Assembly (NCBI GenBank): GCA_003480425.1
Contig: QUJA01000009.1
Location: 1-64,000, forward strand
DNA: 64,000 nt
Reading direction: 5' to 3'
Origin: Firmicutes bacterium AM31-12AC
GTDB taxonomy: Bacteria; Bacillota; Clostridia; Lachnospirales; Lachnospiraceae
Shown here: positions 4,269 to 47,577 of the stretch, one piece after another
Position numbering within the stretch: the first letter of the stretch is position 1
Layout of the letters: the number at the start of each line of letters is the position of its first letter
The notes under the pieces: model-generated
Databases searched by the model: none
Seen by the model: only the letters and a program-made list of their open reading frames with translations
What the model was told of the DNA's origin: nothing
Translations under genes and position numbers: made by a program

Positions 4269-4269
4269 T

Positions 4270-5610: not shown

Positions 5611-5649
5611 CCTCTGTATCCTTTCTCACCTGATTTGTAAGCACATGTC

Positions 5650-5948: not shown

Positions 5949-5965
5949 GAATTTTTCTCCTTAAA

Positions 5966-11900: not shown

Positions 11901-14900
11901 AATGTTGCAATTTGATTTGCTGCATTTTGTGAAATCACAGAAATCTCTGAAATATATTTTGACTTAAGCATCGAATCCATTGCTGCTTCATAGGCTTCAA
12001 GCATTCCATCAACAAACGCTTTGCTGTACATGTCACTTCTATATTCTGCAGTAAGTACATATTCGTGATCATACTCTCTTACCTGAATAAGCAGTGGCAT
12101 CTTCGCCATATCAAGCGACAGATCCTGTCCTCTCGCAATCGTATCTCCGATTGGATAATCATCACTTAACTCTGCCTGATATGCAAAGACGAAATCTGAA
12201 TTTATACCATATTTTGCACAGATATCATAGAATGGGAAGATATCATTTGCCATCGATGACATAAGCTGTTCTGAAAGCTCTGCCATATATGTCTGTATCG
12301 TCGTTTTCTCCTCAAAAGCACAGTATACAGGAAGTGTTTTTACAAGCATGCAGACTGTGTTTTCAAGTCGGGAGTCATTTCGTCCGTTGTAAATCGTTGC
12401 AAAAAGGCTGTCCTCGGAATTTGAATATTTTGTTGCAAGAATACCAAATAATCCTGTAAATAATGTGTTTGGCGTAACCCCTACTTTTTCACAGTAAGCA
12501 CGGATTTTCTCTTCCGGAATGTTTACTTCTCTTGACGTAATTCCCTTTTCAGGAGTTTTTCCTGAAATGTCCGGAAGCGGAAGTGACTCTGTTTCAACAC
12601 CTTCGAAAACGCTGTCGTAATATTTCTCGGCCTTTTTATATTTGCCCTCTTTCATCTGCTGTTCTTCATCAAGAGCTGCATCAAATCCTGTGTAGGTTTC
12701 GCTCTCAAGTTTTTCACCACAATACGCCTTATTGATATCTTCAAAAATAATATCGTAAGAATTACCATCTGCAATGATATGATGAAAATCTGTAAACAAA
12801 TATTTTTTATCTTCTGTAAGATAAATTTCCGCACGGAATAAACGCCCTTTTTCAAGCTTAAACGGACGTACCAGATTTTCTTTTAATGCTTCAAACTCGC
12901 TGTTTGTAGTCTTGATAATCTTTGGTATAAACGTATCTTCTCCCGGTCTTTGCACCATCTCTCCGTCACTGTTGAGATACACTTTTGTAAGCAGATAGGA
13001 ATGTGCATTTACCATCTTTGTAAGTGCATCAGCCAACTTCTGCTCATCAATCGCATTTTCCAGCTCAAAAAGGAATGGTATATTATAAACTGTGCTGTCT
13101 GGGTTTTTGCTACACTCAGCAAAAATACCTTTTTGAGATCCTGTAAGCGGATAAACCTCACGTTTTTCATAGGTTCCAAGCTTCGGTGCAAGCATGATGT
13201 ATTTTTCAAGTTTTTCAATCGTATTATTGTCATGGATATCGCCTGTTTTCACAGTAACTTTGAACTCATCCGAAAGTAAAATGCACAGTTTCATTGCACT
13301 GATGGAAGAAAGCCCTGCTTTGTAAAGACTGGTATCAATTCCAAAGAAATCATTTCCTACAATTTCAGAAACAATTTCAAAAATCTTTTTCTGTATCGGA
13401 GTTTCTGCTGCTTTTAAATTTGTCGGTGCTGAAACCGGCTTTGGCAATGCTTTCTTATCGACTTTTCCATTCTGTGTCATTGGCATCTTTTCAAGCTGTA
13501 TAAATACCTCCGGCACCATATAATGTGCGAGTGATTTTGAAGCATATTCCATAAGCTTTTCTGTATCAACGTCATGGTCTGCAATAAAATAACAGCATAA
13601 GTATTGATTATCTACCGGGATTGTAATACTGGTAAGAATGCCATCAAAGCTATTTATCACTTCTTCTATCTCACCGAGCTCGATTCTAAGTCCTCGCAGC
13701 TTGATCTGATTGTCCATTCTTCCGAAAAACTCTATTTCATTATCGGAATTGATTTTCGCAAGATCTCCTGTTTTATATGCACGTTCTCCATTCAATTCGA
13801 TAAATGCAACCGCCGTTTTCTCCGGAAGATTCACATATCCTCTGCCGACTCCAAGACCTGCTATAACAAGCTCACCGGTTTCTCCGTCCGGCAGGATATG
13901 ATTCTCTTTATCGACAATAAATACCTTCACATTTCCATTTGGAGCGCCGATTGTAATTTTTTGACTGTCTGTTATTACCTTCATAGTACAACTTATCGTT
14001 GTCTCCGTCGGACCATACCCGTTCATAATATAAGCATTCTGATTTACCAGACGGATCTTTTCATAAAGTGCCGGTGGAAATGCTTCTGCTCCGATATCAA
14101 AAACCTTAATCTGGGACATTGCTTCTGTAAGTTGTGGCAGATCAATAATGTTTGACAAATATGTAGGAGTTGTCGTCATAATATCGACTTTATTTTTTAC
14201 AATTAAATCTCCGAGAATAATTGGATTATTAATTTCATCTTCACTTGCTATAACCGCTGTAAGACCATTTGTAAGTGGAACAAATTCTTCGAGAATCGAT
14301 ACATCAAATGTCATTGCTGCCATAGAAAGAGAAACCGAGCCTTTGTCTACATATCCAAAGGTTTCCGCATTTTTCGGATCTGGGTTCACAAAGTTCGCCA
14401 GATTCACGTGTTCAATCATAACTCCTTTTGGCTTTCCTGTTGAGCCGGAAGTATAGATACAGTAGCAAAGATCATTCTCTTTTATTTCAACATCCGGATT
14501 TTCTGCATTTTCATTTTCAAGAAGCTCTTCAAGAAGCAGCACCTTGCAGTCGAGCTTTGCAAATAAATCCTGTCTCTCCTTTTCAATCTCCTTTGTCGTA
14601 ATTACAAAAGGAATTGCGGCATCCTCAAAAATGTACTGGATTCTATCATCCGGATAATCCGGCGCCGCAACCGTAAATGCTCCTCCTGCTTTTAAAATTG
14701 CCTGTCGTACTGCATAGAAATCACAGCATCTCTCAAGAATAACTCCTACGATCGTCTCTGCCTGCACACCCTTTTCGATGAGTGCATTTGCAATTCTATT
14801 CGCTCTTTCATTTAATTTCGAATATGAAAAGCTTTCCTTACTTGTCACAACCGCAAGCTTGTCCGGATGAAGAACCACCTGCTCTTCAAATAATTTTGTC

Positions 14901-14947
14901 ACTGGGCGAAACTTAAATTCAACATTACTTTCATTGATTGCAGTCAT
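5966..14947 (-). CDS. Three-module nonribosomal peptide synthetase with terminal reductase (A-T-C-A-T-C-A-T-R)
   Basis: A 2993-residue enzyme, intact over 9 kb. Order by residue: A1 (core YTSGSTGKPKG ~165), T1 (GLSSISA ~550), C1 (HHIIADG ~724), A2 (YTSGSTGVPKG ~1172), T2 (GLTSISA ~1555), C2 (HHIIADG ~1725), A3 (YTSGSTGKPKG ~2172), T3 (GGSSLTA ~2550), R (ITGATGFLGIH ~2635; catalytic-type YIRTK). Both condensation domains keep the HHxxxDG motif and all carriers keep the phosphopantetheine Ser. There is no starter C, epimerase or thioesterase. The R domain should release the chain with NAD(P)H as an aldehyde, perhaps further reduced. The predicted product is a tripeptide aldehyde, or a cyclic imine formed from it. 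Gut clostridial NRPS-R enzymes of two modules are known to make dipeptide aldehydes and pyrazinones that inhibit cysteine proteases; here there are three modules. No phosphopantetheinyl transferase gene lies in the window. Confidence 0.95.
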   Translation of the reverse strand: MTAINESNVEFKFRPVTKLFEEQVVLHPDKLAVVTSKESFSYSKLNERANRIANALIEKGVQAETIVGVILERCCDFYAVRQAILKAGGAFTVAAPDYPDDRIQYIFEDAAIPFVITTKEIEKERQDLFAKLDCKVLLLEELLENENAENPDVEIKENDLCYCIYTSGSTGKPKGVMIEHVNLANFVNPDPKNAETFGYVDKGSVSLSMAAMTFDVSILEEFVPLTNGLTAVIASEDEINNPIILGDLIVKNKVDIMTTTPTYLSNIIDLPQLTEAMSQIKVFDIGAEAFPPALYEKIRLVNQNAYIMNGYGPTETTISCTMKVITDSQKITIGAPNGNVKVFIVDKENHILPDGETGELVIAGLGVGRGYVNLPEKTAVAFIELNGERAYKTGDLAKINSDNEIEFFGRMDNQIKLRGLRIELGEIEEVINSFDGILTSITIPVDNQYLCCYFIADHDVDTEKLMEYASKSLAHYMVPEVFIQLEKMPMTQNGKVDKKALPKPVSAPTNLKAAETPIQKKIFEIVSEIVGNDFFGIDTSLYKAGLSSISAMKLCILLSDEFKVTVKTGDIHDNNTIEKLEKYIMLAPKLGTYEKREVYPLTGSQKGIFAECSKNPDSTVYNIPFLFELENAIDEQKLADALTKMVNAHSYLLTKVYLNSDGEMVQRPGEDTFIPKIIKTTNSEFEALKENLVRPFKLEKGRLFRAEIYLTEDKKYLFTDFHHIIADGNSYDIIFEDINKAYCGEKLESETYTGFDAALDEEQQMKEGKYKKAEKYYDSVFEGVETESLPLPDISGKTPEKGITSREVNIPEEKIRAYCEKVGVTPNTLFTGLFGILATKYSNSEDSLFATIYNGRNDSRLENTVCMLVKTLPVYCAFEEKTTIQTYMAELSEQLMSSMANDIFPFYDICAKYGINSDFVFAYQAELSDDYPIGDTIARGQDLSLDMAKMPLLIQVREYDHEYVLTAEYRSDMYSKAFVDGMLEAYEAAMDSMLKSKYISEISVISQNAANQIATFNSTENDYGRSKTIFDMFSETAREIPERTAVVFKDKRYTYKELDEISDRLGKYIASLGIGSEDVVSILIPRCEYMAIAPLGVIKAGAAYQPLDPTYPKDRLMYMLEDAQAKLLIVDRELLPLVDGYEGTVLYMDEIMQIEDRDMELKEPELHDLFILLYTSGSTGVPKGCMLEYGNITAFSHWYKKYYELDFDSKVAAYASFGFDACMMDIYGTIANGAELHIIPEEIRLDFIALNDYFETNGITHSFMTTQVGRQFAMEMDCKSLKYLSVGGEKLVPCEPPKNFKFFNGYGPTENTIFTTIFEVDKYYNNVPIGKALDNNKLYITDKFGHLLPYGACGELMIAGWQVSRGYLNKPEKTAEVYTKNIYDDEEGYEVLYHSGDVARYLTDGNIQIIGRKDSQVKIRGFRIELSEVEEVIRRYEGIKDATVVAFDDPFSGKYIAAYVVSDSKVDINALNDFIKETKPPYMVPAVTMQIDKIPLNQNQKVNKKELPKPEKKVEEIIKPQNDTQQKIFDCVAEVLGYTEFGITTDIFSVGLTSISAIKLNMLISKEFDIVIKTSDIKDNPTIEKLEGFVQKAGKTSKRKIQEIYPLTNTQEGIFIECTANMGTTIYNIPYLFKLDRKVDLDKLAKAIDSTVEAHPYLKTNLFMDENGDVLQKRDDDLEYKTQIIDGMDKETLVRPYMLFNEQLFRFEIHRTAAGNYLFLDLHHIIADGTSLEIIINDINKAYSGETLKKEEYTSYELALDNRDALNSNTYKNAEDYYRSVFEKAGGSIAFYPDKSGAVPTAEMYHREVSEISVQSIKDFCKKNGITENVFFIAAFGLTLGKYNFKENAVFTTIYHGRNDSRLSDTVGMLVKTLPVYCDFSGQTQEYLADVRQQLMDSMNNDIYPFSQISREFNIKADAMVIYQGDNFEFDTIGGEFASEEPVHLNAAKAPVSVSISIVRNKFVFEIEYRGDMYREETMKYLADNLELAIDGLTKEEKASDIRLLFEEETKMVDVLEHAGKTFVELFKETVTKYPDKAAVKDEFGELTYKELDRMSDYVAQKLTENGVGREKVAGILCGRTKEFTVAYLGVMKAGGAYVPLDPEYPQSRIEYMLTDSGAENLLVVNKYRDLVAFYDKNIISLDEVAEEAKEFELSVELTPPKPENLAYMIYTSGSTGKPKGVMIEHRNLLNLIEYLVSSRKMTPDFIVAEFASFCFDASVVDLFAPLTVGAMLYILPEGIRKDAVAVAKFVREENITTLTIPTQIGELVTELLEEAPALRFATLGGEKFKHYRNRTYQMVNGYGPTENTVSSTEFFVDKQYENIPIGKSQTNIRSYIVDKDLTRLPVGASGELCHAGRQIARGYHNLPEKTAAAFVENPFSICEEDKRLYRTGDMVRMKGDGNIEYIGRIDSQVKIRGYRIELGEIEGAIVKYDSVQNAAAKVIEKGGNKYIVAYYTGVSTSDEEMKNFLEPLIPDYMMPSFFVHLDKMPVTPGGKIDKKALPEPEMSVERNSYVEPVTAVQTELCGIFEKALGIDKVGIEDNFFDLGGSSLTASKVAIMCLSKNIGIVYADIFKYPTVHELSAMLGNDEAVEDTTGGNEFSNYSYNKIQSVISGNIEENVDLVTKEKIGDIMITGATGFLGIHILKAYLDHYDGKVYCLVRKGSYESPEKRMMNMLMYYFDNPYKEMFEERIVCVDGDITSKEDVDRLAEYKFQTLINCAACVKHFAAGDVLEKINVIGVENLIDLCKNNARRLIQISTVSVSGEGSDGVPPMSRVFCENDLYIGQNITNEYIRTKFIAERAVLEAVADGLDGKIIRVGNLMSRDSDGEFQINFITNGFLRSLRGYKAVGKFPVGSMHEVTEFSPIDSTALAVLNLVQTDRRFTVFHACNSHHIFMSDLIYAMREHGFKIDIVKDEEFETAVKEFAKTGQDSDAVSGLIAYTSHNENEIYTLDYGNRFTSQILYRLGYKWPITDDRYLESAIEALDRLTFFD

Positions 14948-24827: not shown

Positions 24828-25454
24828 CTACATCTTCACTACCGCATCAAGGCAGAGTGTAAGTGCATATTCATATGCGTTTCCACCAAAATTTCGCTCG
24901 TCATATTTATTAATATTTTCAAGGCTATCTGCCGTATAAAGTATCATTCCCCAATTTACACCACGAAAAGCCGAACAAGCTGCAAGTGCTGAACATTCCA
25001 TTTCTACAACAGAACACCCTTCGCTTTTGCGGTATATTACTTTTTCTTTGGTTTCACGATATAACCCATCCGTTGACCAAATAATAACTTCTTGATATTT
25101 CATACCATGTTCTAGTATAGTTTCTTCAATAGCTTTTCTTGCTCTTTCATTAATTGCCATAAAACGTGACAGTGGAGCATAGTGATAAGATGTTCCTTCA
25201 TCACGCAGAGCCTTGTATGGTACAAGAAATGTCCCTTCAGGAAATGTTTCAAGACATCCGCAAGATCCGGCAGAAATTATTTCTCGCACACCATACCCAA
25301 TCAGCCAATCCAAAATTTGTGTCGCAGAAGCGGCACCTACAGGTGCTTGACAAAGTGTGACCTCTTTTCCCTTATATTCAGCTATGTAAATCGGATAATA
25401 CTTCGTTGCACTAATAAGAGTGAATTCTATAAGACAATTTTTAATATCGGCAAG
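24828..25454 (-). pseudogene. Purine/uridine nucleoside phosphorylase, N-terminal part missing
   Basis: The frame is open from 25454 but has no proper start; the only in-frame options are TTG 25313 and unusual codons without a binding site. What remains is the PNP_UDP core: SATKYYPIYIAEYKGKEV, CQAPVGAASATQ, IISAGSCG, TDGLYRET, CSVVEMECSALAACSAFRGV and a final YEYALTLCLDAVV. VEMECSAL is the usual base and ribose binding motif. Compared with ~250-residue relatives, about 45 N-terminal residues are absent. These normally hold a phosphate-binding Arg. The upstream sequence to 25770 does not supply them in any frame, so this looks like a real truncation beside the island boundary. Confidence 0.75.
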
Positions 25455-25770: not shown

Positions 25771-25782
25771 TTATTCAAACTC
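25771..25782. repeat. Attachment site repeat A (left junction with chromosome)
   Basis: TTATTCAAACTC, identical to the end of guaA at 45959-45970 and to the site at 37232-37243, all in the same orientation. Confidence 0.85.
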
Positions 25783-25883: not shown

Positions 25884-25903
25884 TATTGTCATTTTGTTGT
25901 CTC
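25884..25903. promoter_or_regulatory. Candidate integrase arm site, left end of element 1
   Basis: TATTGTCATTTTGTTGTC, a paired TTGTC repeat, ~102 bp from att site A. The counterpart at the right end of element 1 is 37155-37174. It overlaps the stop codon of the AAA+ gene. Confidence 0.6.
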
Positions 25904-27158
25904 ACTGACAATCTTGCTCACCTTTCTCGCTATTTACATACTCTTTCCATGCTTTATCCTTTCCCACTAATCCAACAAAACGATTCATAACATTACGCTT
26001 TATGCTTCTCAAATTATCATAGTTCTGATAATTTTCTTCTACTATTTGATTTTTTATAGTAGTTTTTTTTAACACACCTATATGTTCCATATAATCTTCT
26101 ATTAGTTTATCAGTAAAATCAGAAACAAATTTCACTTTATCTGCATAAGATAAAGGTTGAAACTCATATGTCATATCAAATCTAGAAAACAAAGGTTCTG
26201 GAATCATATCCTTAAAATTGGTATTATTTAAATTCGCTGTAAAAACAATTATATACCCATCCAAATCAATAACTTTTCCATCCAAATCAGTATATTGACC
26301 ATCTTCTAGCATTTCATAAAAGAATGTAAATATAGCTTCATCCGCCTTATCTAACTCGTCGATTACAATAATTTTCGACTTACTGTGCAAAATCTTATTT
26401 GTCAACTCTCCACCTTGTTCACTTCCAACATATCCTTTGGGAGAACCAATTAAACTCCACAAAGAACCTTTACCTGAATAATTCCCAAAATTAATTTTTA
26501 TTGATGGTTCATCCGGGTACATCTCTCTCTGTAAAATTCTTCCTACTTCCGTTTTTCCTACTCCTGATTTACCGCATAACAACAAGGAAAAAACTTTCTT
26601 TCTTTTCATTCTATGTAGTAAGATAAATGCCTCTATCTGGTCTTTAAAATCCTTTTTAAACTTCTCATGCCCATATAACTGCAAATCAAACTGTTCTATA
26701 ATAGAATCAAATTTCTCTTTATTACAATCAATAATAGAAAACGCTTCCTGTTCTTCTTGTGTCTCCTCTTGAGTTTCTTCAGCCTTATCTAACACTTTAT
26801 CGCATTCCTCATCTCTTTCAAAATAATAGCTAAACACATCACAGGCTTCATGCAAAAAGGTTTTTTCCACACAATAATCAATATTTTCTTCGTTTTCTTC
26901 ATTTAACGAATTAATCCATCCCTCATATATAATTCGCAAATCATTTCTTACAAGAGCAGACATCACCATTACGGTTATATCAATAACAAAATGCTCAACA
27001 TCATTTATTCCTGTATACTTTAATGCAATATTTTGATTAGTCAAATAGGAAATAGGGTACACAATATTCTCCCCTTCTGGAAATTGTTTTGCAAATTCAT
27101 CAAATTTACCTTTTTCATAATACAATAATTTTTTCTTTTTCATCTCTCTATTTTGCAT
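25902..27158 (-). CDS. ClpB/ClpX-like AAA+ ATPase of the defence operon (possible DodB-like)
   Basis: A 418-residue protein with one AAA+ module of the AAA_2 type. Residues ~1-150 are a family-specific N-terminal part, with an acidic Glu/Gln run (EETQEETQEEQEA) near 135. Walker A is LLCGKSGVGKTEVGR (~197-211), Walker B is IIVIDELDKAD (~263), and a sensor region reads IIVFTANLNN. An arginine-finger-like FSRFD follows (~325), then a helical C domain. DELDKA is typical of the ClpX and Clp D2 group, suggesting protein remodelling rather than DNA translocation. The ATG at 27158 overlaps the upstream gene by 11 nt and has CAGGAGA in front, so it is translationally coupled. In Dodola defence systems a ClpB-like ATPase pairs with a DUF6414 protein, which may be the case here. 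Confidence 0.85.
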   Translation of the reverse strand: MQNREMKKKKLLYYEKGKFDEFAKQFPEGENIVYPISYLTNQNIALKYTGINDVEHFVIDITVMVMSALVRNDLRIIYEGWINSLNEENEENIDYCVEKTFLHEACDVFSYYFERDEECDKVLDKAEETQEETQEEQEAFSIIDCNKEKFDSIIEQFDLQLYGHEKFKKDFKDQIEAFILLHRMKRKKVFSLLLCGKSGVGKTEVGRILQREMYPDEPSIKINFGNYSGKGSLWSLIGSPKGYVGSEQGGELTNKILHSKSKIIVIDELDKADEAIFTFFYEMLEDGQYTDLDGKVIDLDGYIIVFTANLNNTNFKDMIPEPLFSRFDMTYEFQPLSYADKVKFVSDFTDKLIEDYMEHIGVLKKTTIKNQIVEENYQNYDNLRSIKRNVMNRFVGLVGKDKAWKEYVNSEKGEQDCQ

Positions 27159-28422
27159 TAATCTCCTGAATCACTGCAATCACATCTATAACCTCTTGGA
27201 ATTCTCCAGATTGCTTACCTTTATTGTATATATCATCAAACATTTCTTCCTTACCTTGCACAGAGGGTTGTAATCGGTAATCATCGTTCTCATAAGTATG
27301 CACTTTCTTCTGTTCATTATTTTCCGAAAAAATTTCTTGTAAACTTAATCTTTTTTCATACTGACGTTTTCCTCTATAAATTCCTACAACAGTTACAGTA
27401 CCAACCTGTAAATCATATATATTATAAGAATTCTCAAAATCGTTTTCAAAGGTCATTGGAATTGTTAACAAAAATTTCTTATCACCAACAATACATCCCA
27501 ACTCATAAGCACAATCCTTTAATAAAGAGTTTATCATTGCTGATAAATCAAATTCAATTTTCATGTCATCTGAATTACTGCTAATTTTCGTATCCTTAAA
27601 TGCTCCGTTTAATATCATTTTAGTAACAGCATAGGAGTCTTCAGCATTCAAAAGTACTAAGGATGCATTCTTCAATAAAATCAAATCACCCAAATTCATC
27701 ATTTCATTTTCTTCATATACATTGGCTTTTGCAATAATACTTGCAAGCATATTTGATTTAGTAGTCTTTACATCAAAGTTTTCAAGCACCTTACTTTTCA
27801 TGCCATTATGAATTTGAATATTTTGAGACAATCCTAATTCACCTTTTACGCTCTCTAAATATTTAAGATTACTATTAATACCAATATTAGTTTGTTTCTC
27901 AAGCGTCGATTCTGATTCATTTTCACTTGTTCCACTAGTAACAATTCGATTATTCAAAAGCATTGCAATCTCGTATACTTTTTCAGTATTTATATAATAC
28001 AAACTAAATATTTTCTTTTTCCTCTCTTGCTTATCCTCTTCACCTTCCATCCCACTTATCTTTGCTCCTTTAATTTTGCTGTATATCAGCATATAAAGAG
28101 CGGTTATCATGTAAATAACAATTTTAATCTTTGCTGGAAAAAGCATTGTATCTATTAAAACAAGCATTAGATATTCAACAGCCGCTAAAACTAACGCATA
28201 GTATAATCCGTTTACTTCCTTTTGACTTTCTCTTTGTGTGCACAACAACTTTAACACTACCGCTAGCAAGATCGGTACAGAAAGAATATACGGCGAATAA
28301 AAATATGTTATGTCAAATATATGTACAATATCTAACAATATACATACAACAGAAATTGAAATTAAGATTATTGCCAGATAATGCATCCATTTTTCAGCAA
28401 TACATTCTTTAATTTTTTTCAC
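27148..28422 (-). CDS. Membrane-anchored protein, possibly DUF6414-like (DodA-like)
   Basis: About 424 residues. I start at GTG 28422, which has AAGGAGG 8 nt upstream; the earlier in-frame TTG at 28482 has no site. Residues ~10-130 hold four or five hydrophobic segments in pairs (YLAIILISISVVCILL, YILSVPILLAVVLKLL, YALVLAAVEYLMLVLID, IVIYMITALYMLIYS). After a basic linker a soluble domain begins FSLYYINTEKVYEIAMLLNNR. This resembles the YLD-x-x-KV opening I know from DUF6414 proteins, with a later LGDLILLKNASLVLLN. That family match is from memory and needs a profile search. The gene starts 61 nt after the nuclease stop and overlaps the ATPase gene by 11 nt. A membrane anchor would place the ATPase at the membrane. 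Confidence 0.6.
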   Translation of the reverse strand: MKKIKECIAEKWMHYLAIILISISVVCILLDIVHIFDITYFYSPYILSVPILLAVVLKLLCTQRESQKEVNGLYYALVLAAVEYLMLVLIDTMLFPAKIKIVIYMITALYMLIYSKIKGAKISGMEGEEDKQERKKKIFSLYYINTEKVYEIAMLLNNRIVTSGTSENESESTLEKQTNIGINSNLKYLESVKGELGLSQNIQIHNGMKSKVLENFDVKTTKSNMLASIIAKANVYEENEMMNLGDLILLKNASLVLLNAEDSYAVTKMILNGAFKDTKISSNSDDMKIEFDLSAMINSLLKDCAYELGCIVGDKKFLLTIPMTFENDFENSYNIYDLQVGTVTVVGIYRGKRQYEKRLSLQEIFSENNEQKKVHTYENDDYRLQPSVQGKEEMFDDIYNKGKQSGEFQEVIDVIAVIQEINAK

Positions 28423-28483
28423 ACTCGTCCTCCTTTTTACATAATCCTCAAATATATAACGACATATTAATGAATACACCAAG

Positions 28484-29584
28484 TTACGGATTAAAAACTA
28501 CTTGTCCTTTGAATTCTTCAAAAAAGCTCATCGGGATACTCCGTTGACATTTAAAGCTTTTTTCTGCAACATAAGTAAAACTTTTTCCCAATTCTTCTCC
28601 CGGACACATTATTAAGCCATCTATTGCACCATCCATAGCATTAGTCAATGCAATAAGATATCTAATAGTTCTTGTTGTAAAATTATCATTTATCTGTTCT
28701 TCAAACTGCGGAGAATACTTTCCTAGATCAATCGTTGGTGAATCTTGTACTTTAACCTCCAACATTTGATTTCTTATATCTGGATATCCACCTTCAAGAC
28801 TATCTTGCTTACCGCTATATCCCAATTGATAAGCTACCATTCTCTCTAATTGCTGTCCTCTTTGTTTTGTAGACAAGGAAATGTCTAATTTTTCACCGAT
28901 AAGCCTGTCAGTAATACGTTCATCTATAATCTCAATTGGCAAAACCTTTTGAGGTTCATCTTTTATACTGACATCAGCGTTTATAATTTCGTCACCACTA
29001 GCCAAAAGTTCTTGTGGCAAGTTTGAATCAGCTATTACCATACCACCATCGCGAATAATATCTTCACGTTTTTTATTAGAAATAATAAGTTGTTGTTTAA
29101 CTGTAGGTTTACCAAATTTTCCAAACCTATTTTCAATATAATCTGGAGTCATTACAATTATAGATTCAATACAATTATCTGTATCTATCTTACCTAGAAC
29201 AAATCTTACATCGCTTGCCAAAAGAGTTTCTCCATTCTTTAAATCAACCTGCACTGATGTACTGTTCGGATTTCTATTCCATACTTGCAAATTATATGAA
29301 TTACCCGTTGTAACAATATATGTATCTATATATTCTCGCAAGAAGGCTGGCACTCCTTTTTGTTTGGGTGGTACAATTTCATACTCATCCGCTGCTTCAG
29401 GCATATAATTTGATAAGAGATGATTGGTTACAATCTTTCTAAAATTTGATCCATCAGTTCTTGATTTTCCCGTCATAGGTATCGCCTGACCAATCAACGG
29501 TCTTAATGCTTCTACAAGTTCTTCTGGTGTAGATATAACACTTTTACATTTAGGTGGTTTCTTGCCCTCTTCAATACAATTCAT
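28484..29584 (-). CDS. Probable type II restriction endonuclease (PD-(D/E)XK)
   Basis: A 366-residue protein with no family I can name. Near residues 265-277 it has GGYPDIRNQMLEVKVQD, that is PD, then five residues, then E-V-K, the PD-(D/E)XK metal-binding core. Before it comes RGQQLERMVAYQLG, a helix often preceding the catalytic strand. Residues ~70-170 may be the DNA-recognition part. The ATG shares one base with the methyltransferase stop (TAATG), so the two are translationally coupled. Order and coupling with an N6-adenine methyltransferase make it the cognate nuclease. The recognition sequence cannot be predicted. Confidence 0.72.
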   Translation of the reverse strand: MNCIEEGKKPPKCKSVISTPEELVEALRPLIGQAIPMTGKSRTDGSNFRKIVTNHLLSNYMPEAADEYEIVPPKQKGVPAFLREYIDTYIVTTGNSYNLQVWNRNPNSTSVQVDLKNGETLLASDVRFVLGKIDTDNCIESIIVMTPDYIENRFGKFGKPTVKQQLIISNKKREDIIRDGGMVIADSNLPQELLASGDEIINADVSIKDEPQKVLPIEIIDERITDRLIGEKLDISLSTKQRGQQLERMVAYQLGYSGKQDSLEGGYPDIRNQMLEVKVQDSPTIDLGKYSPQFEEQINDNFTTRTIRYLIALTNAMDGAIDGLIMCPGEELGKSFTYVAEKSFKCQRSIPMSFFEEFKGQVVFNP

Positions 29585-31776
29585 TAGTAATGCTCCTCTC
29601 TCCCTTTTCCTATAAAGCTTTCAATTTTTAAAATTTCTTCCTCTGATAAATCAAATGCATCATAAACAATCTTATCTATTGCATTTTCTAATTCGCCTGA
29701 CATGCCCGCAATTAAATCATCCACATATTTAGCTATGATTATGGCATCATCCTTTTTGATTCTTGGAATAGGCCATCTATTCAAATTCGATGTAGTATAC
29801 CTATACTTCTGCGAATATAGGCAACCGCTTATCATTTTTTGATAAAATTCCATAGCTTTGGAATTTAATAGTCCTAATAAAAAACAATAATATTGATGTT
29901 CATTTAAATCTGAGTATTCCGACATTAAAATTGAAGATTTCTTCGTTAGGAAAAACGTATTACCTTGGCATAATCTCCCCGACTCATCTAGTGCAAATGA
30001 ATTGCTTGAAACAATATCCCTCGTGACAATTTTTGTTTGTTGAAATTTTGATAACTTCTGAGGAACCCAACACTCATACCACATTCTACTCTTAGACTCT
30101 GCCAAATAAGATCGTTTCTTTAATACATCTGAACATTCTTCAAGATATTCTGCTGCTTTAGGTATCTCTTCCAAAGGAATAGCAACCATATTCCCTTCTA
30201 TTTCTCTATGTGGATATAATATATATCTATCCCTTGAACTTTCACCCCACGAAATATTCCATTTATTCACATTAAAACTCTGTATTAATGGATATACCGC
30301 AATTTTCTCAAATGCATGCTCATTAATAAAATTTTGAGTCATCGGTTTTACAAATATTGTATCTGCAGTAGTCTTTATCCCTACACATACATCAACTATA
30401 TCCACGAGAGAGCATATTTTTTGTTCATCCATTTTTGTTTTGATAGTGTTCTCATCACTTGTAGAAAAGTTCCATGTTTTTCCATCAGCAGGTATTTTGA
30501 CCTTTGAACGAGACACTTCAAAAACTTGCTTATCTTCATTTCCATAGAGAATGAAACTTTTACCACAAGTCAACTCATTTTCAACGTACTCAAATAACTC
30601 ATTAGCATTCAAACACACACGCTGTACATCTTGCTCAGCAGTTTTTATTCCGATATAATCCACTTCACAGTTATCACTCTTACTATTTTCGCACATAATA
30701 ATTGCTGGCAAAACAGCAGCACCAAAAAATTTAGTATCATACAAATCTACCAATTTTCTAACATGTCCTGCTTGCGACAAATATTTGCGTATACCCACGC
30801 CATAATTAGCAGTCAAATACTTGTTACTTGTAATCAAACACATCCTTCCATTTTTATTCAATAATTTATCACTTTTTTCGAGAAAACAAGTAAAAATATC
30901 AAATCTCCCCGTAGCACTAACAAAATTATTTTTTATAAAATCCCTATATTCAACAGGCATGTTTTGTAACCTGATATAAGGAGGATTACCAATAATATAA
31001 TCTGAGTTATCTCCCACACACAAAAAATCCTGACAGTATACTGGCAGTTTTCTTATCATATCCAAAACATCTTTGATTTCACATATAAAATTTTTCTTAA
31101 CTAGCGAAGAAATAATGACTATTTTTGTAACAAATACATTGGATGGTTTTGTATCGTATGCTCGTATTAATTTACGTTCCAAAAGTTTTTCCTTATATGT
31201 GTTTGTAACTTGATTTACATACAATCCATCTATAAACCTATCTATTATCTGCTTTATAAATGTACCCGTACCACATGCCGGATCAACAATAGTTTTATTA
31301 ATAGAAACAATCTCATTATATCCTATAATATCAAGCATATATTTGATTATTTCATCCGGCGTTCTTTCACTTCCAGATTTTTTTCGGGATTCTAAATCTA
31401 TCCCATCTGTCAATAATCCAAATAATATCTCATCTAACTCTTTCTCTGTTTTATCAGCAAATGAGATCTCGATATTTTTCATATTTGAAAAACCCACACA
31501 TATTTTTTCAATCTGATTTTCGTTATATTCTATTCCTTTTCTATTCAATAGTTCAATCAATACAGCTGTCGCTGTATATATAGCCGATATCGAATAGTTT
31601 AGCATTTTATCTTGTGCTGATAACTTGTTCCCCACTTTTCCAAACATCTTGTCTATAAATTTTGTCTCATCATCTTTAACACTCAAATAATAGATATGCC
31701 CAAAATTTCTTTTGTAAAAACCAAAATTCTTATTTATAACATAGTATGAATTTTCTAAAACGCTCATAGCATCCAT
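29584..31776 (-). CDS. N6-adenine DNA methyltransferase (type II, Eco57I/TaqI-like)
   Basis: About 730 residues. Motif I, TIVDPACGTGTF, lies at ~165 and binds S-adenosylmethionine. Motif IV, IIGNPPYIRL, at ~268 is the N6-adenine catalytic NPPY. A helical region precedes motif I. The C-terminal 350 residues look like a target-recognition domain ending in a helical tail with a TTSNLNRWPIPRI segment, as in TaqI-like specificity domains. I prefer ATG 31776 over 31791 because GGAGG lies 8 nt before it. The gene follows a small XRE regulator whose stop codon is just upstream, an arrangement like controller-protein R-M systems. Codon usage and base content are much more AT-rich than in the flanking core genes. 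Confidence 0.9.
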   Translation of the reverse strand: MDAMSVLENSYYVINKNFGFYKRNFGHIYYLSVKDDETKFIDKMFGKVGNKLSAQDKMLNYSISAIYTATAVLIELLNRKGIEYNENQIEKICVGFSNMKNIEISFADKTEKELDEILFGLLTDGIDLESRKKSGSERTPDEIIKYMLDIIGYNEIVSINKTIVDPACGTGTFIKQIIDRFIDGLYVNQVTNTYKEKLLERKLIRAYDTKPSNVFVTKIVIISSLVKKNFICEIKDVLDMIRKLPVYCQDFLCVGDNSDYIIGNPPYIRLQNMPVEYRDFIKNNFVSATGRFDIFTCFLEKSDKLLNKNGRMCLITSNKYLTANYGVGIRKYLSQAGHVRKLVDLYDTKFFGAAVLPAIIMCENSKSDNCEVDYIGIKTAEQDVQRVCLNANELFEYVENELTCGKSFILYGNEDKQVFEVSRSKVKIPADGKTWNFSTSDENTIKTKMDEQKICSLVDIVDVCVGIKTTADTIFVKPMTQNFINEHAFEKIAVYPLIQSFNVNKWNISWGESSRDRYILYPHREIEGNMVAIPLEEIPKAAEYLEECSDVLKKRSYLAESKSRMWYECWVPQKLSKFQQTKIVTRDIVSSNSFALDESGRLCQGNTFFLTKKSSILMSEYSDLNEHQYYCFLLGLLNSKAMEFYQKMISGCLYSQKYRYTTSNLNRWPIPRIKKDDAIIIAKYVDDLIAGMSGELENAIDKIVYDAFDLSEEEILKIESFIGKGREEHY

Positions 31777-31791
31777 AGAACAAACCTCCAT

Positions 31792-31995
31792 CTAGTCTTC
31801 CGTTAACTCCATAATATCCTGTAAATCACACTCAAGAGCATTACATATTTTCAACAAAATATCTGTATTCACATTTTCATTTTTTCTCAATTTAGCAATG
31901 GACGTCATACTAATATCAGCCTTTTCTGCCAAATCCTTTTTTAGCATCTCTCTGTCTATTAACAATTTCCATAATCTTTTATAACTTATCTTCAT
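31792..31995 (-). CDS. Small XRE/Cro-type regulator (controller protein of the defence operon)
   Basis: A 67-residue single helix-turn-helix domain: LWKLLIDREMLKKDLAEKADISMTSIAKL, with YozG/Cro-like features and no other domain. It leads the methyltransferase operon with TAGGAGGACAC before its ATG and ends where the methyltransferase begins. It probably times expression of methyltransferase and nuclease by binding its own promoter. The promoter spacer and start region contain TTCGAA and short inverted repeats that could be its operator. Confidence 0.8.
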   Translation of the reverse strand: MKISYKRLWKLLIDREMLKKDLAEKADISMTSIAKLRKNENVNTDILLKICNALECDLQDIMELTED

Positions 31996-32082
31996 GTGTC
32001 CTCCTAGAATTCGAACATATTTTCTTAATTATACCATTAAAATCCTGCTTTTGCAATAATATTTTCGCATTCGCTAAATTTC
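31996..32082 (-). promoter_or_regulatory. Promoter of the defence operon
   Basis: On the minus strand, TTGCAA (32051-32056) and TATAAT (32028-32033) lie 17 nt apart, ~30 nt upstream of the XRE start. A palindromic TTCGAA sits between the -10 box and the start codon. Confidence 0.7.
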
Positions 32083-32403: not shown

Positions 32404-33498
32404 ATGGCGGTTGTCAAGAATAATAAGACAGGAATGTGGGAGGTAAGAACCTATTATAAGGATTTGACAGGAGCAAGGAAGCAGAAAACCAAGAGGGGAT
32501 TTGCCAAGAAGAGCGAAGCCCTTGAATGGGAACGCAATTTCAAACTGAAAGAGGATCAGAGTATCAGTATGAGCTTTAAAAGTTTTGTGGATATTTATCT
32601 GACGGATTTAGAGCCAAGAATAAAGCGCAATACTTTTCTGACAAAGAAGCACATTATTGAGACAAAGATTCTGCCTTATTTCGGGAAACGAAAACTGGAT
32701 GATATTCGAACCTCTGATGTCATCCAGTGGCAAAATGAGATTATGAAGCTGAAAAAGGATAATGGGGCGTTATTCTCCCCTACCTATCTGAAAACCATCC
32801 ATAATCAGCTCAGTGCCATATTAAATCATGCGGTAAATATGTATGGTCTAAAGGATAATGTAGCACGAAAAGCCGGAACTATGGGCAAAGAAGAAAATAA
32901 GGAAATGGAGTTCTGGACGCAGGATGAATTTCAGGCATTTTTAGAGTGCGTGGCTGATAAGCCAATTTCTTATTATGCATTTGAAGTGCTTTATTGGACA
33001 GGAATTCGAGAGGGTGAGCTGCTTGCTCTGACGCCGACAGATTTCAATTTTGAAAAGAAAACACTCCGAATTAACAAGTCATATCAGAGGCTGGAAGGCA
33101 AAGATGTGATTACATCCCCCAAAACTCCAAAGAGTAATAGAAACATTGTCATGCCGGATTTTCTTGCTGTAGAGATGGAGGATTTTATAAGCAGTCTTTA
33201 TGAAATAAAGAATGATGACAGAATTTTCATTATTTCAAAAAGTTATCTGCATCATGAGATGGATAGAGGAGCAAAGCTTGCAGGAGTGAAGAGAATACGG
33301 ATTCATGGATTAAGACATTCGCACATTTCATTGCTAATCAATTTAGGATTTTCTGCATTAGCAATAGGGGAGAGAGTCGGACATGAGGCGGTAGATATCA
33401 CATATCATTATGCACATTTATTTCCGACGGTGCAGACGGATATGGCAGCACAACTGGAAACAGAAAGAGAGGCGTTAGTCAATGTCAGAAAAGAATAG
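32404..33498 (+). CDS. Tyrosine recombinase/integrase of element 1
   Basis: A 364-residue phage-type integrase. An N-terminal AP2-like arm-binding region (GMWEVRTYYKDLTGARKQKTKRGF) is followed by a SAM-like core-binding domain (~60-165). The catalytic domain has Arg in GIREGELL (~205), HGLRHSH (~300), VGHEAVDITYHYAHLF with the nucleophile Tyr (~330). All catalytic residues are present. It is closely similar along its whole length to the integrase at 43407-44498, consistent with both elements using guaA. AAGGAGG precedes the ATG by 8 nt. It now reads toward the right, opposite to its counterpart, because the segment is inverted. Confidence 0.95.
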   Translation: MAVVKNNKTGMWEVRTYYKDLTGARKQKTKRGFAKKSEALEWERNFKLKEDQSISMSFKSFVDIYLTDLEPRIKRNTFLTKKHIIETKILPYFGKRKLDDIRTSDVIQWQNEIMKLKKDNGALFSPTYLKTIHNQLSAILNHAVNMYGLKDNVARKAGTMGKEENKEMEFWTQDEFQAFLECVADKPISYYAFEVLYWTGIREGELLALTPTDFNFEKKTLRINKSYQRLEGKDVITSPKTPKSNRNIVMPDFLAVEMEDFISSLYEIKNDDRIFIISKSYLHHEMDRGAKLAGVKRIRIHGLRHSHISLLINLGFSALAIGERVGHEAVDITYHYAHLFPTVQTDMAAQLETEREALVNVRKE

Positions 33499-35705: not shown

Positions 35706-37139
35706 ATGAAAATCAAGAAGATACAGTTAGAAAATAACACTTTTTTCGGAAATATCACTTTCGATTTCACCAACGGTACAGGAGATGTTATGGATAACAT
35801 AGTTCTTGCAGGCGAAAATGGATGTGGAAAAACACAACTATTAAATATACTATATGAATTTTCCGAATTATCAACAAGCGGTATTGTTAGTACAGAAAAA
35901 AGAGTTTTTACAATCTTATTATCAAATGAAGAAATTTCAAAAATAAATAGTATAACAACATTGTTAAGTCCTCCAATAGGTGAATTTGAAATAACACAAG
36001 ATTTCACTGCTCAGCCTAACTATTGGAGTAGGATAAAAATTAGATATATATCTAGCGAAGAAAATGGTGATATTTCTTTCAAAGACTTAGATGCATCAAC
36101 TTTATTTTCAAATGCCAATGTAAAAAAACTATTCAAATCAGTTTTTTCAACAGTAGAAATTAATTATAATCCGCAAACCACATCATCTATAACAGCACAA
36201 GAAGTCGACCAAGAAATAGAAAGTAGTTTACGTAGTGGCAACAATTTAGGAACAGAAATACAACAACTATTTATTGACATTCATACTAATGATGCTAACG
36301 ATTTGCAAAGTTGGGTAGATGAACACGATGGTATTGCCCCGCCACCCGAGGTCAAAAATGTACGGATTAATCGATTCAAAAGAGCATTTTCTACAGTATT
36401 TGACAATTTAAATTTTCATAGAATTATTACTGAAAATAATATCAAAAAGGCAATGTTCAAAAAATACGAACAAGAGGTAGATATTGCTTCTCTCAGTTCC
36501 GGCGAAAAGCAAATAGTCTTTAGGGGAGCATTCCTATTGCGCAATCAACAAAGTATAAAAGGTAATACCATTTTAATTGACGAACCAGAAATAAGCTTAC
36601 ACCCTAAATGGCAAACAAAAATTTTTGATTATTACAGAAAATTGTTTATGGACAATAATAACAAGCAAACTTCCCAGTTATTTATTGCCACCCATTCACA
36701 ATATGTATTAGATTCGGCTCTTGCATGTATGGATAACACTTCCATTATTTTAATGAAAAGAACAAATAATAGAATGGAGATGAATGCTATATCAGCTCCT
36801 TTAGTTCTACCTTCCATCACTGCGGCTGAGTTGAATTATGTGGCTTTTGATATTGTATCGAACGACTACCACATTGAACTATATGGGTACTTACAACAAA
36901 AAGTTGCTCGTTCTCTTGGGCACCTCTCTTGTTCCGTTAAGGAATGTGATACCTACATTACTCAACAAAGCGAATATATTGTAACATTACACGAAAAGCC
37001 TTCATCTCACAACACTACAACATATTCATCATTAACAACCTACATCCGTAATGCAATAGACCATCCTGACCCTAACAGAGCTTTTACAGAAGATGAGCTC
37101 CGTTGTTCTATAGAATTACTAATAAAACTTTGTCATTAA
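35706..37139 (+). CDS. AAA_21/OLD-like ATPase, probable defence protein
   Basis: A 477-residue ABC/SMC-like ATPase. Walker A is LAGENGCGKTQLLN (~37-50). The central region (~100-240) is an insertion of unknown fold. The signature is LSSGEKQIVF (~264), with Walker B ILIDEPEISLHPKWQ (~291) and an H-loop region IATHSQYVL (~326). The C terminus has no TOPRIM, HNH or PD-(D/E)XK motif that I can see, so it is not a complete OLD nuclease. Related ATPases work with a separate effector in several phage-defence systems, but no effector gene follows; the att site is ~90 nt downstream. It may act alone or be left from a two-gene system. Confidence 0.75.
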   Translation: MKIKKIQLENNTFFGNITFDFTNGTGDVMDNIVLAGENGCGKTQLLNILYEFSELSTSGIVSTEKRVFTILLSNEEISKINSITTLLSPPIGEFEITQDFTAQPNYWSRIKIRYISSEENGDISFKDLDASTLFSNANVKKLFKSVFSTVEINYNPQTTSSITAQEVDQEIESSLRSGNNLGTEIQQLFIDIHTNDANDLQSWVDEHDGIAPPPEVKNVRINRFKRAFSTVFDNLNFHRIITENNIKKAMFKKYEQEVDIASLSSGEKQIVFRGAFLLRNQQSIKGNTILIDEPEISLHPKWQTKIFDYYRKLFMDNNNKQTSQLFIATHSQYVLDSALACMDNTSIILMKRTNNRMEMNAISAPLVLPSITAAELNYVAFDIVSNDYHIELYGYLQQKVARSLGHLSCSVKECDTYITQQSEYIVTLHEKPSSHNTTTYSSLTTYIRNAIDHPDPNRAFTEDELRCSIELLIKLCH

Positions 37140-37231: not shown

Positions 37232-37243
37232 TTATTCAAACTC
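37232..37243. repeat. Attachment site repeat B (junction of elements 1 and 2)
   Basis: TTATTCAAACTC, identical to sites A and C. It is the right end of element 1 and the left end of element 2. Confidence 0.85.
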
Positions 37244-37461: not shown

Positions 37462-37959
37462 TTACTTTTCCTTATATTCATCTGGTATTGCTATTTGAAA
37501 TGTTTCACACAACAGCATCACATCATGCACATCATTTTTATCGTGTTCATATCCCAAATGAAGCATTACCTGACTCAATGGTTCAATACAAGAAACAGTT
37601 ATATCTCCAACTTTTCCAATACCGGAAAAAGTTTTTGATGGAAATATATCTCCCTCATAAACAATTCCGTCATCTGTAAATTCAAAACAATGTAAATCAA
37701 TGATTCTTTGTTTATCATCTTTCCAGACAGTATGACCATCCGTTGTATAATCAGTATTTACTTCCTCAAATCCATGCTGCTTAATCACATAAATATAATC
37801 ATGATAATGTTTCAGTTCAACAAACAAATCAATATCATTGTGTATTCTTGATTCTCTTTTAAGAAGTGCATCAACACCCCATCCGCCATCTAAATATACT
37901 TTAATTTCGTTTTGCAAAGCATATTTTATAATTTCACATGCATCTTCTGTACGTACCAT
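37462..37959 (-). CDS. Lincosamide nucleotidyltransferase, Lnu(A/C) type
   Basis: A 165-residue enzyme of the small Lnu group, which adenylates lincomycin and clindamycin and so inactivates them. The catalytic region reads VYLDGGWGVDALL, then HNDIDLFV, whose Asp residues bind Mg2+. Further family features are GHTVWKD, IIDLHCFEF, GDIFPSKTFSGIG and LGYEHDKNDVHDVMLL. The length fits Lnu(A)/Lnu(C). It is similar but clearly not identical to the Lnu(C) sequence I remember, so I give no allele name. It lies 84 nt after the ABC-F gene on the same strand and is likely expressed from the same attenuated promoter. Confidence 0.88.
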   Translation of the reverse strand: MVRTEDACEIIKYALQNEIKVYLDGGWGVDALLKRESRIHNDIDLFVELKHYHDYIYVIKQHGFEEVNTDYTTDGHTVWKDDKQRIIDLHCFEFTDDGIVYEGDIFPSKTFSGIGKVGDITVSCIEPLSQVMLHLGYEHDKNDVHDVMLLCETFQIAIPDEYKEK

Positions 37960-38043: not shown

Positions 38044-39588
38044 TCAATCACCAATTAGCTGTAATCCATTAGGATTTAGCTGATATATTTTATCGCACAC
38101 CTCTTCAATATACTTTCTATCGTGAGAAATGCTAATGACAGCCCCCGGAAATTCTCGGAGCATTTTTCTTATTACCGGACCGGACAATGGTGAAAAATTT
38201 CTTGTCGGTTCATCCAGAATAAGAACATTTGCACCACTTAAGCTCATCCTCAAGAGAAGCACTTTCGCCTTTTGTCCGCCTGATAACTCCCGAATCGGAT
38301 GCTCCATTTCATCTGGTGTGTATTTAAGTGAACCAAGGTATGTTCTAATTCTTGTACGCTCTTCTTTATCTCCTGTTTTATCAAGGTAATCAACCGGTGT
38401 AACATCCAAATCCAGCAGGTCTTCATAAGTTTGAGGCATATATTCTGCTTTAATGTCATTCCGATTTAGGAGTTCTTCCGCTATCTTTTTTAGAAGAGTC
38501 GTTTTTCCTGCCCCGTTGGCTCCTATCATACAGATTTTTTCTGAACCTTTTATTTTTAAATGAATTCCTTCTGCTAAAATTCTTTTGCCATCCGGAGTCA
38601 CAAGCTTTGAAAGTTCATATTCTATGACCGTTTTTCCTGCGGGAATGTGTGAGTTTTCATCCCCTAATTTGACAAAGATTGCTTCTTCCTGTTCCGGCAT
38701 CTGAGTCATATTTTCATCTTCTTTTTCAAATCTTCGTTCCATTGCCTTAACCGTATGCATTTTGTCCTTTAAGTTTTTGGCAACAGACGGTGCTTGTCTG
38801 GTACAACTTCTTAATGCACCTTGTACACTCTGCATAACTCTTTGATATTTTTCATCGCGAATCTTTTTCTCCCTACGGTCACTCAGTGCCCGCTGTTTTT
38901 GGATTTCAAATTTATGAAGCCGTTCTTCCACATAGCGTCTATAGGGAAGCTTTGCCACGGTATATCTCGCCTTTGTTTTTCGTATAATCTGCTCGATATG
39001 TATCACCATGTTGGCAGTACGCTCTATCAGCGTTTCATCGTGTGAAATAAAAAGCACAATGTGCTTCCAGTCATTTATGATTTTTTCCAGTAATGTAAGC
39101 GTCGCAATGTCGATGTCATTGGAAGGTTCGTCCAACAACAGCACAGAAACATCGCGAATGAAAAGCCTCATAAGTTGTGTCTTGACTTTTTCGCCTCCTG
39201 AAAGACTACCCATTGTCTGGTTACTGTAGAAAAAATCATTTTTCATTCCAAATTTTCCCGCAATAACAGACAATTCTTTAGGCGTTTTCTCCCAGAATAT
39301 TTCCTCTTCAGAAAAATATTCGTATATTGTTTTTTCCTTATCTTCATCGAGCATCTCCTGCGGAAGATAACCAAGACGTTCGTGTCCCATTATCCTTTCC
39401 CCATCTGCTTCTATATAGTTTTCTACAAGCGACGGATTGTATATCCACTTCATTAATGTCGATTTCCCATTTCCCTCTTCTCCAATAATAACTGCCTTAT
39501 CTCCATCATTTAGCACAAGGTTGAAATCATTAAGAATTATTCTCAGGTCTTTTTTATGTGTTAAATTTAATTTTTTTATCTGCAACAT
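38044..39588 (-). CDS. ABC-F ribosome-protection protein
   Basis: A 514-residue cytoplasmic protein with two ATP-binding domains and no membrane part. First Walker A GEEGNGKST, signature LSGGEKVKTQ, Walker B LLLDEPSND; second Walker A GANGAGKTT, signature LSGGQKAKVLL, Walker B LILDEPTRN. The linker (~190-290) is long, helical and basic (HKFEIQKQRALSDRREKKIRD), as in ABC-F proteins that enter the ribosomal exit site to displace lincosamides, streptogramin A or pleuromutilins. ATG 39588 has AAAAGGAG 8 nt upstream. Its partner Lnu gene and the leader attenuator upstream both support an antibiotic-resistance role. I cannot assign it to a named class such as lsa or vga. Confidence 0.9.
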   Translation of the reverse strand: MLQIKKLNLTHKKDLRIILNDFNLVLNDGDKAVIIGEEGNGKSTLMKWIYNPSLVENYIEADGERIMGHERLGYLPQEMLDEDKEKTIYEYFSEEEIFWEKTPKELSVIAGKFGMKNDFFYSNQTMGSLSGGEKVKTQLMRLFIRDVSVLLLDEPSNDIDIATLTLLEKIINDWKHIVLFISHDETLIERTANMVIHIEQIIRKTKARYTVAKLPYRRYVEERLHKFEIQKQRALSDRREKKIRDEKYQRVMQSVQGALRSCTRQAPSVAKNLKDKMHTVKAMERRFEKEDENMTQMPEQEEAIFVKLGDENSHIPAGKTVIEYELSKLVTPDGKRILAEGIHLKIKGSEKICMIGANGAGKTTLLKKIAEELLNRNDIKAEYMPQTYEDLLDLDVTPVDYLDKTGDKEERTRIRTYLGSLKYTPDEMEHPIRELSGGQKAKVLLLRMSLSGANVLILDEPTRNFSPLSGPVIRKMLREFPGAVISISHDRKYIEEVCDKIYQLNPNGLQLIGD

Positions 39589-39631
39589 TAAAGTTTCTCC
39601 TTTTCGAAGTCTGAGCCAATTATTATTTTGA

Positions 39632-39676
39632 ACACACAAAAACGAGTCTTTTTTGCATACGCAAAAATAGACTCGC
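39632..39676 (-). terminator. Attenuator in the ABC-F leader
   Basis: On the minus strand CGAGTCT and AGACTCG form a hairpin, extended by pairing of TTTTTGC with GCAAAAA, and TTTTTGTGTG follows. It is a factor-independent terminator ~45 nt before the ABC-F start, far downstream of the promoter. This is the usual layout of drug-inducible attenuation. Confidence 0.75.
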
Positions 39677-43092: not shown

Positions 43093-43417
43093 TCGCATCC
43101 TCTCCTTTCAAACCGCCGAGAATAATGGAAATCAGTTCTATTACACTCAGCAGTTCATCATCCACACCTTTTCCTGCTTCAATCCTTTTCAGTTCCGCAA
43201 GGACTGTGGCAAATTCCGTTTTCAACGCCTTATACACTCTCGGATTGCCCTGTACCACCACATCCTGATTTAAGCAACGGCGGTAACAATACTCCTGTTT
43301 TGGCAATCCTGATAGAGCTACAGCTCTGTTAATGAGTTCGTTTTCTTCGGGCGATACTCGAAACCCTACTGTGATATTCCTCCAACGATTTTTGTTATCT
43401 CTGTTCTTAGCTGACAT
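43082..43417 (-). CDS. Ribbon-helix-helix mobilisation protein (MobC-like)
   Basis: A 111-residue protein with an N-terminal ribbon-helix-helix (NITVGFRVSPEENELINRAVALSGL) and a helical C terminus. Such proteins bind oriT and help the relaxase. ATG 43417, inside the end of the integrase gene, has AAAGGAG 8 nt upstream. It overlaps the RepA-like gene at the other end, so integrase, this gene and RepA are translated as one unit. It is the intact version of the broken gene at 33482-33853. Confidence 0.8.
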   Translation of the reverse strand: MSAKNRDNKNRWRNITVGFRVSPEENELINRAVALSGLPKQEYCYRRCLNQDVVVQGNPRVYKALKTEFATVLAELKRIEAGKGVDDELLSVIELISIILGGLKGEDANGE

Positions 43418-45958: not shown

Positions 45959-45970
45959 TTATTCAAACTC
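45959..45970. repeat. Attachment site repeat C within the 3' end of guaA
   Basis: TTATTCAAACTC on the plus strand equals the codons GAG TTT GAA TAA (Glu-Phe-Glu-stop) of guaA. Insertion here leaves guaA intact. Confidence 0.88.
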
Positions 45971-47506: not shown

Positions 47507-47577
47507 AATGTTCCTCCTTTCAGATGATATCTCTACCATTCCTTCGAATTAATTCTGCATATTTCAGAATAACTTTA

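Follow-up and report, generated by a model that had tools for sequence, protein, structure and literature searches.

Does the five-gene operon at 25902..31995 of contig QUJA01000009.1 encode a single composite antiviral machine, or has a separate defence module been joined to restriction-modification (R-M) genes? The operon lies in a 64,000-nucleotide (nt) stretch of DNA from the gut-type bacterium Firmicutes bacterium AM31-12AC (hereafter the window, meaning the whole of this stretch), and in it the genes of a type II-like R-M system are followed by those of a membrane protein and a ClpB-like ATPase. Comparison with related loci points to the second answer, as the last two genes appear to be a portable cassette of the PDC-M37 family. 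New features of this locus are a membrane-anchored, type II-linked form of PDC-M37 and, in its relatives, cassettes standing behind unrelated R-M types.

All five genes listed in the original prediction, namely those for an XRE regulator, an N6-adenine methyltransferase, a PD-(D/E)XK nuclease, a membrane protein and an AAA+ ATPase, are present in this order of transcription as open reading frames (ORFs) on the minus strand, at the positions predicted for them, and family matches well beyond chance agree with the assignments (Table 1). Read directly from the DNA, the XRE stop abuts the methyltransferase start (TAGATG), the methyltransferase stop and nuclease start overlap as TAATG, and the last two genes overlap by 11 nt. 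The proposal that all five proteins are made together through such overlaps needs one correction: nuclease and membrane protein are separated by a gap of 61 nt (28423-28483) containing a new ribosome site, so that co-production of all five is no more than likely. A promoter-like site precedes the XRE gene, and such sites show no excess in this A+T-rich region (30 versus 36.3 expected from shuffles).

The first three genes are assigned, by their domains and motifs, to a type II-like R-M system. The first, encoding the HTH_26 protein, matches the PADLOC Control_protein model only weakly (0.0044); this regulator is also 46-48% identical to the XRE head of a 5-methylcytosine (5mC) methyltransferase fusion in an M37-linked R-M operon elsewhere (L036, 10374-11603). 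The methyltransferase contains DPACGTGTF and NPPY, which we take to be its catalytic motifs, and a GGAGG within its first codons suggests that its true start may lie at residue 6. The alignment with its best PDB relative, M.BseCI (7qw5, 2.5e-59), spans residues 136-716 and extends into the C-terminal part. Neither a Pfam match at E<=1 nor a PDB relative was found for the nuclease, but it fits a PADLOC type II nuclease model (Table 1). It carries a PD-(D/E)xK core (P268-D269 ... E276-V-K278) whose D269, E276 and K278 are identical in 107/107 aligned homologues, the alignment comprising the 107 proteins of 340-390 amino acids (aa) among 120 listed from a total of 1089. A type II methyltransferase and a separate nuclease are thus both present, with open genes and retained catalytic motifs as judged from the translations. 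The arrangement resembles type II systems with a BseCI-like methyltransferase (site ATCGAT) in the methyltransferase alignment, the nuclease in the next gene and the small regulator in first position, but differs in about 120 extra N-terminal methyltransferase residues, in a nuclease unrelated to PDB or Pfam entries, and in the two additional genes behind.

Those two genes, adjacent and with A first, match both PDC-M37 models and are accordingly classed by profile as a pair of PDC-M37, an unvalidated phage defence candidate (PDC) of PADLOC-DB. The membrane protein matches four PDC-M37A models, the best being PDLC04602. Its start is placed at a GTG behind AGGAGG, giving 424 aa, rather than at the TTG at 28482 where the mechanical ORF begins; a length of 424 or nearly 424 aa is found in most full-length homologues among 120 listed. 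A PDC-M37A model also matches Methanocaldococcus jannaschii, which served as a control genome, so the family may extend to Archaea. M37B consists of an N-terminal alpha/beta part and a single Clp-D2-type AAA+ module with motifs that we take to be Walker A, Walker B, GYVG, sensor 1 and an SRF arginine, the GYVG type presumably being a Clp pore loop. Among 15 aligned rows (14 M37B proteins and the DolB of locus L037), conservation is complete (15/15) at Walker A GxGKTE, at the sensor and at the arginine; of the 14 M37B rows, 13 have the Walker B glutamate and L003 (M37B at 5085-6260) has lysine instead. The G-Y/F-V/I/M-G/N motif occurs in 14/14 M37B rows and is absent from the one canonical DolB aligned. 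The AAA+ core and C-terminal small domain of the predicted M37B model superpose on the ClpB/ClpC D2 ring and on Skd3 (mitochondrial CLPB), and the module shares their Walker A/B, sensor 1, arginine finger and pore-loop motif; however, M37B has only one AAA+ module, a different short N-terminal part, and scores far under the curated ClpB/ClpA cut-offs (95 bits versus 1232 for ClpB).

Table 1. Features of the operon and of the element that carries it, in window positions
Feature	Position	Strand	Basis
Promoter-like site TTGCAA-17-TATAAT, extended TG, in front of XRE	32028..32056	-	consensus match only
XRE/HTH_26 regulator, 67 aa	31792..31995	-	PF13443 1.6e-18
N6-adenine DNA methyltransferase, 735 aa	29584..31791	-	Eco57I / N6_Mtase / TaqI_C domains; PADLOC MTase_II PDLC03226 1.9e-81
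Type II restriction endonuclease, 366 aa	28484..29584	-	PADLOC REase_II PDLC03565 1.6e-20
PDC-M37A, membrane-anchored, 424 aa	27148..28422	-	PADLOC PDLC04602 1.2e-55
M37A N-terminal four-helix transmembrane part, residues 1-125	28048..28422	-	hydropathy; AlphaFold2 helices 2-35, 40-60, 64-90, 97-125
M37A soluble DUF6414-related part, residues 136-424	27151..28017	-	weak OB-fold-like match
PDC-M37B, 418 aa	25902..27158	-	PADLOC PDLC04605 4.9e-108; PDLC04606 7.3e-108
att-like repeat TTATTCAAACTC, outer end of operon-carrying element	25771..25782	+	exact copy
att-like repeat TTATTCAAACTC, junction of two tandem elements	37232..37243	+	exact copy
att-like repeat TTATTCAAACTC, 3' end of guaA-like gene 45959-47539	45959..45970	+	exact copy
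Tyrosine recombinase of the operon's element	32404..33498	+	NF040815 2.7e-20, below its cut-off
AAA ATPase of the operon's element, possible further defence gene	35706..37139	+	TIGR04435 1.4e-12, PtuA 1.1e-9, both below cut-off (restriction-associated/PtuA ATPases)

The last two genes had been likened to a Dodola pair (DolA with DUF6414, and ClpB-like DolB) with an added membrane anchor. The two-gene layout, the ClpB-like partner, the DolB match of M37B (116 bits, 6.8e-34) and the membrane part bear this likeness out, but the window M37A itself has no match to DUF6414 (PF19952) or DolA at E<=1, M37B gains threefold more bits from PDC-M37B (360 bits), and the L037 DolB lacks the GYVG motif kept by M37B and is 18% identical. 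By profile, the window M37A is not a DUF6414/DolA member; M37A and DolA are nevertheless distant relatives, because matches cross between the models: L003 has a shorter M37A relative that scores above the DUF6414 cut-off (27.1 bits versus 25, 4.4e-6), a clear DUF6414/DolA protein in L037 (1.9e-43; 3.5e-83) also touches an M37A model (5.3e-6), and the plasmid M37A proteins of L016 and L019 match DolA (2.2e-5 and 6.4e-6). Four other scanned M37A-type proteins (L017, L019, L024 and L031) gave no DUF6414 match. Relative to the PDC-M37 candidate itself, which both window proteins match strongly, the window member differs in its fused membrane anchor and in its position at the end of a type II R-M operon.

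Related loci were collected with M37A queries alone, R-M genes not being considered, from one scan of genome contigs (6 loci), whole-genome samples and plasmids (4 records). The cassette is rare, with M37A matches in 5/391 (2 strong), 3/397, 3/238, 1/247, 2/257 and 3/235 (2 strong) genomes of the six samples, the centre genomes of the 391-, 238-, 247-, 257- and 235-genome samples being known beforehand to match. Once two shared islands (L005/L006 and L017/L018) had been collapsed, 16 independent strong loci were counted (L001-L005, L016, L017, L019, L024-L027, L030, L031, L035 and L036). A predicted membrane part is present in four of them (L001, L005/6, L024 and L025), in addition to the window.

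R-M genes of unrelated types lie upstream of the cassette at 7/16 loci, or at 7 of the 14 that can be judged, two (L001 and L002) being cut by the contig start. In six of the seven no gene intervenes, and the cassette follows on the same strand at a distance of at most 84 nt. Directly upstream are a type IIG enzyme (L003, E=0); a nuclease (4.7e-101) with a methyltransferase (2.3e-113) in L004; a 5mC-type methyltransferase (2.1e-86) with an HpaII-type nuclease (2.6e-83) in L005/L006; a type IIG enzyme (6.3e-264), a methyltransferase (3.7e-180) and a PLD-like protein (2.4e-7) in L026; a methyltransferase (1.1e-127) with REase_II (1.5e-156) in L027; and an XRE-5mC methyltransferase fusion (3e-126) with an Eco47II-type nuclease (1.6e-90) in L036. 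At L025 the distance to a type IIG gene (5.6e-278) is 3.0 kb, and of the four small ORFs in between, three were scanned and had no PADLOC match. The partner nucleases, that of the window included, are of the PD-(D/E)xK, HpaII, Eco47II, PDLC03418 REase_II, PDLC03548 REase_II, type IIG and PLD-like types. Beside the remaining seven pairs (L016, L017/18, L019, L024, L030, L031 and L035), no R-M system was recognised in the gene lists and in PADLOC scans of some neighbours only. At L002 the upstream sequence is a partial ORF without a significant family, nuclease-like by eye only. L001, the closest cassette with visible neighbours (M37A 63% and M37B 75% identical to those of the window), follows part of a PDC-S53-type, helicase-type gene (6.2e-134); its contig is titled Bacteroidales, and since only its own genome matched within that phylum (1/247), it may be mis-binned. 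Of the two alternatives offered by the original prediction, a Dodola-like module joined to an R-M system agrees with this distribution, whereas one fixed five-gene system conflicts with the seven loci without recognised R-M genes; neither an absence of any defence link nor a usual separation of the pair from R-M genes was found.

Sister loci indicate where the exchangeable unit begins and ends. Between L002 and L003 the DNA similarity (72%) opens at 980/4186, a single base ahead of the M37A start codons, and stops at 3033/6241, 19 nt short of the end of M37B; between L003 and L004 (69%) it covers 4187/10115 to 6260/12186, limits that coincide exactly with the start codon of M37A and the stop codon of M37B; and the 83% similarity of L026 and L027 sets in at the M37A start (6304/8170). 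Within these three pairs, BLASTP at 1e-3 gave no match between the upstream proteins; weak methylase similarities were seen between loci outside the three pairs. In the tree, starred branches join L026 with L027, L002/L003 with L004, L024 with L025, and the window with L001, and upstream genes differ within each group. Because both the tree groups and the sister pairs carry differing upstream genes, the R-M or other upstream partners appear to change faster than the cassette. As the cassette is found behind unrelated R-M genes and also without recognised ones, and sister similarity begins at the M37A start, PDC-M37 is best described, on these alignments, as a portable cassette rather than part of a fixed five-gene machine, and this evidence for exchange is the most useful new part of the analysis. 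M37B is shortened by a deletion in L026 and was not seen in L036; in L026 (7163-7344, compared with 9030-9904 of L027) the deletion took most of M37B, and M37A and the R-M genes are still open.

Placement was compared with chance in the 14 genomes holding whole-genome loci (31.7 Mb from rounded sizes), in which PF00145 and PF02384 methylases occupy 24 places once fragments of one gene are merged. Five M37/Dol loci (G1543, G004, G005, G423 and G614) lie 0.9-4.4 kb from a methylase, against a chance expectation of 0.76% per randomly chosen place (P 4.7e-8; 2.2e-6 when the shared island enters only once). The placement is non-random, and no more than defence-island clustering is demonstrated by it. 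Canonical Dodola pairs served for comparison: in L037, DolA and DolB directly follow a type III mod gene (5.2e-196), a PDC-S72 gene (3.3e-180; Fic-like by eye) and a DrmD-like helicase gene (3.2e-94). DolA matches were found in 17 plasmid records, six of which (L039-L044) were viewed; in L040 a large DNA methyltransferase gene lies past two small genes on the opposite strand, and L041-L043 have no annotated R-M inside the stretch viewed. Upstream of DolA-DolB, L039 carries two DNA methyltransferases, HicAB, Fic and, as a separate gene (3725-4741), a protein with several hydrophobic stretches seen by eye, and on an Enterococcus plasmid (L044) a TIR-domain gene (4263-4985) lies directly upstream of the pair.

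Our tentative preference, held at somewhat less than even confidence, is that the portable, Dodola-related PDC-M37 cassette closing this type II R-M operon, itself carried by an integrative element, acts as a second-line antiviral module that answers to a shared cue. The R-M system would form the first line and cut unmodified phage DNA. The trigger of the cassette would not be contact with a particular enzyme but a signal that every partner shares, the simplest being DNA (ends or single strands), phage replication or the infection itself. Docking on a single enzyme is less likely than such a shared cue, given that the nucleases and methylases beside related cassettes are unrelated and often absent altogether. 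M37A, located at the membrane in this branch, might bind the cue through its DUF6414-like domain, and the Clp-like ring of M37B, in which an aromatic pore-loop motif is conserved, might then thread or remodel a target, either M37A itself or a phage or host protein, so that the infection would be stopped, possibly by abortive infection. Sensing, target and outcome are all inferred here.

Nearly as likely as this second-line role is that the two modules are independent, PDC-M37 being a self-sufficient Dodola-like defence whose place beside R-M genes, in one operon and on one mobile element, would result from co-transfer and defence-island clustering, with no mutual action. Pairs without recognised R-M neighbours fit this view, as does the protection by cloned Dodola alone against all streptococcal phages tested, reported in PMC12322248, whose Table 1 lists the Dodola mechanism as unknown. 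PDC systems, moreover, were derived through 'guilt-by-embedding' in other defence systems (Payne et al. 2024, as cited in PMC12988326 and PMC12255303), and most lack experimental validation according to PMC12988326. By itself, however, independence leaves unexplained the next-gene, same-strand position within 84 nt in six of the seven R-M-linked loci.

A broader and unlikely generalisation is that the DUF6414/Clp-ring pair, in PDC-M37 and Dodola alike, would be a plug-in sensor-and-unfoldase auxiliary for restriction and other DNA-directed defences. It would move as one piece, delimited by the start codon of M37A and, approximately, the stop codon of M37B, and would stand downstream of enzymes of type II, type IIG and possibly type III, or of TIR or helicase genes. 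When DNA is damaged or restriction fails, it would set off a second response, which in the anchored branch would take place at the membrane.

Clp-dependent alleviation of type I restriction is known, and M37B could by analogy act as an unfoldase that eliminates the restriction enzyme or keeps it in check, M37A being the adaptor at the membrane; the single Clp-type AAA+ module with its pore-loop motif and the position behind the nuclease are compatible with such control. It is nonetheless improbable, since the accompanying nucleases belong to unrelated families and 7/16 loci have no recognised R-M genes. Least credible is an obligate five-gene machine with the ATPase and membrane protein as restriction-complex subunits, which overlapping genes behind one promoter-like site would suit, but which is largely refuted by cassettes without R-M genes or with many differing R-M enzymes and by the helicase-type gene preceding the L001 cassette.

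The comparison links the PDC-M37 and Dodola families, reveals a membrane-anchored branch and places related cassettes behind unrelated R-M operons, raising the testable question of whether a Clp-like ring supplies generic back-up to R-M systems. Ready-made comparisons are offered by sister loci with similar cassettes and differing R-M partners, and by loci with reduced or missing M37B. Among known systems, DarTG2 in a type I R-M system (as described in PMC12255303) is likewise a second defence module within one R-M transcription unit, but the window has another module, a type II host, and the cassette at the operon end rather than between subunit genes. In the literature searched, PDC-M37 is mentioned only in PMC11811056, which records one duplicate Dodola/PDC-M37 call and counts PDC-M37 among the systems labelled differently by PADLOC and DefenseFinder; the term 'DUF6414' was not found, nor was any report of PDC-M37 activity or a test of it, bioRxiv not being covered.

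The operon appears to be carried by a mobile element. The 12-bp repeat TTATTCAAACTC has three matches in the window at <=1 mismatch, all exact, versus 0.99 expected, and at least three occurred in 9/100 shuffles; by itself the repeat is not decisive for integration. One repeat lies at the 3' end of the gene at 45959-47539, which we take from its sequence to be guaA-like, and the end of guaA is a known integration site. Because this coincides with three exact repeats and two tyrosine recombinases, the second at 43407-44498, two elements appear to have integrated in tandem at the 3' end of the guaA-like gene, together spanning 25771-45970; the outer one, about 11.5 kb long, would carry the operon. 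In the inner element, matches below cut-off point to a gene like a lincosamide nucleotidyltransferase (37462-37959; Lnu(C)/(D) models) and to one of the ABC-F ribosomal-protection-like type (38044-39639). Just beyond the outer repeat lies an AMP-nucleosidase-like ORF of 161 aa (24828-25313), apparently a partial gene given the 261 aa of the model, and further away the window encodes a 2993-aa multi-module non-ribosomal peptide synthetase resembling the aureusimine synthetase AusA (5966-14947, below cut-off).

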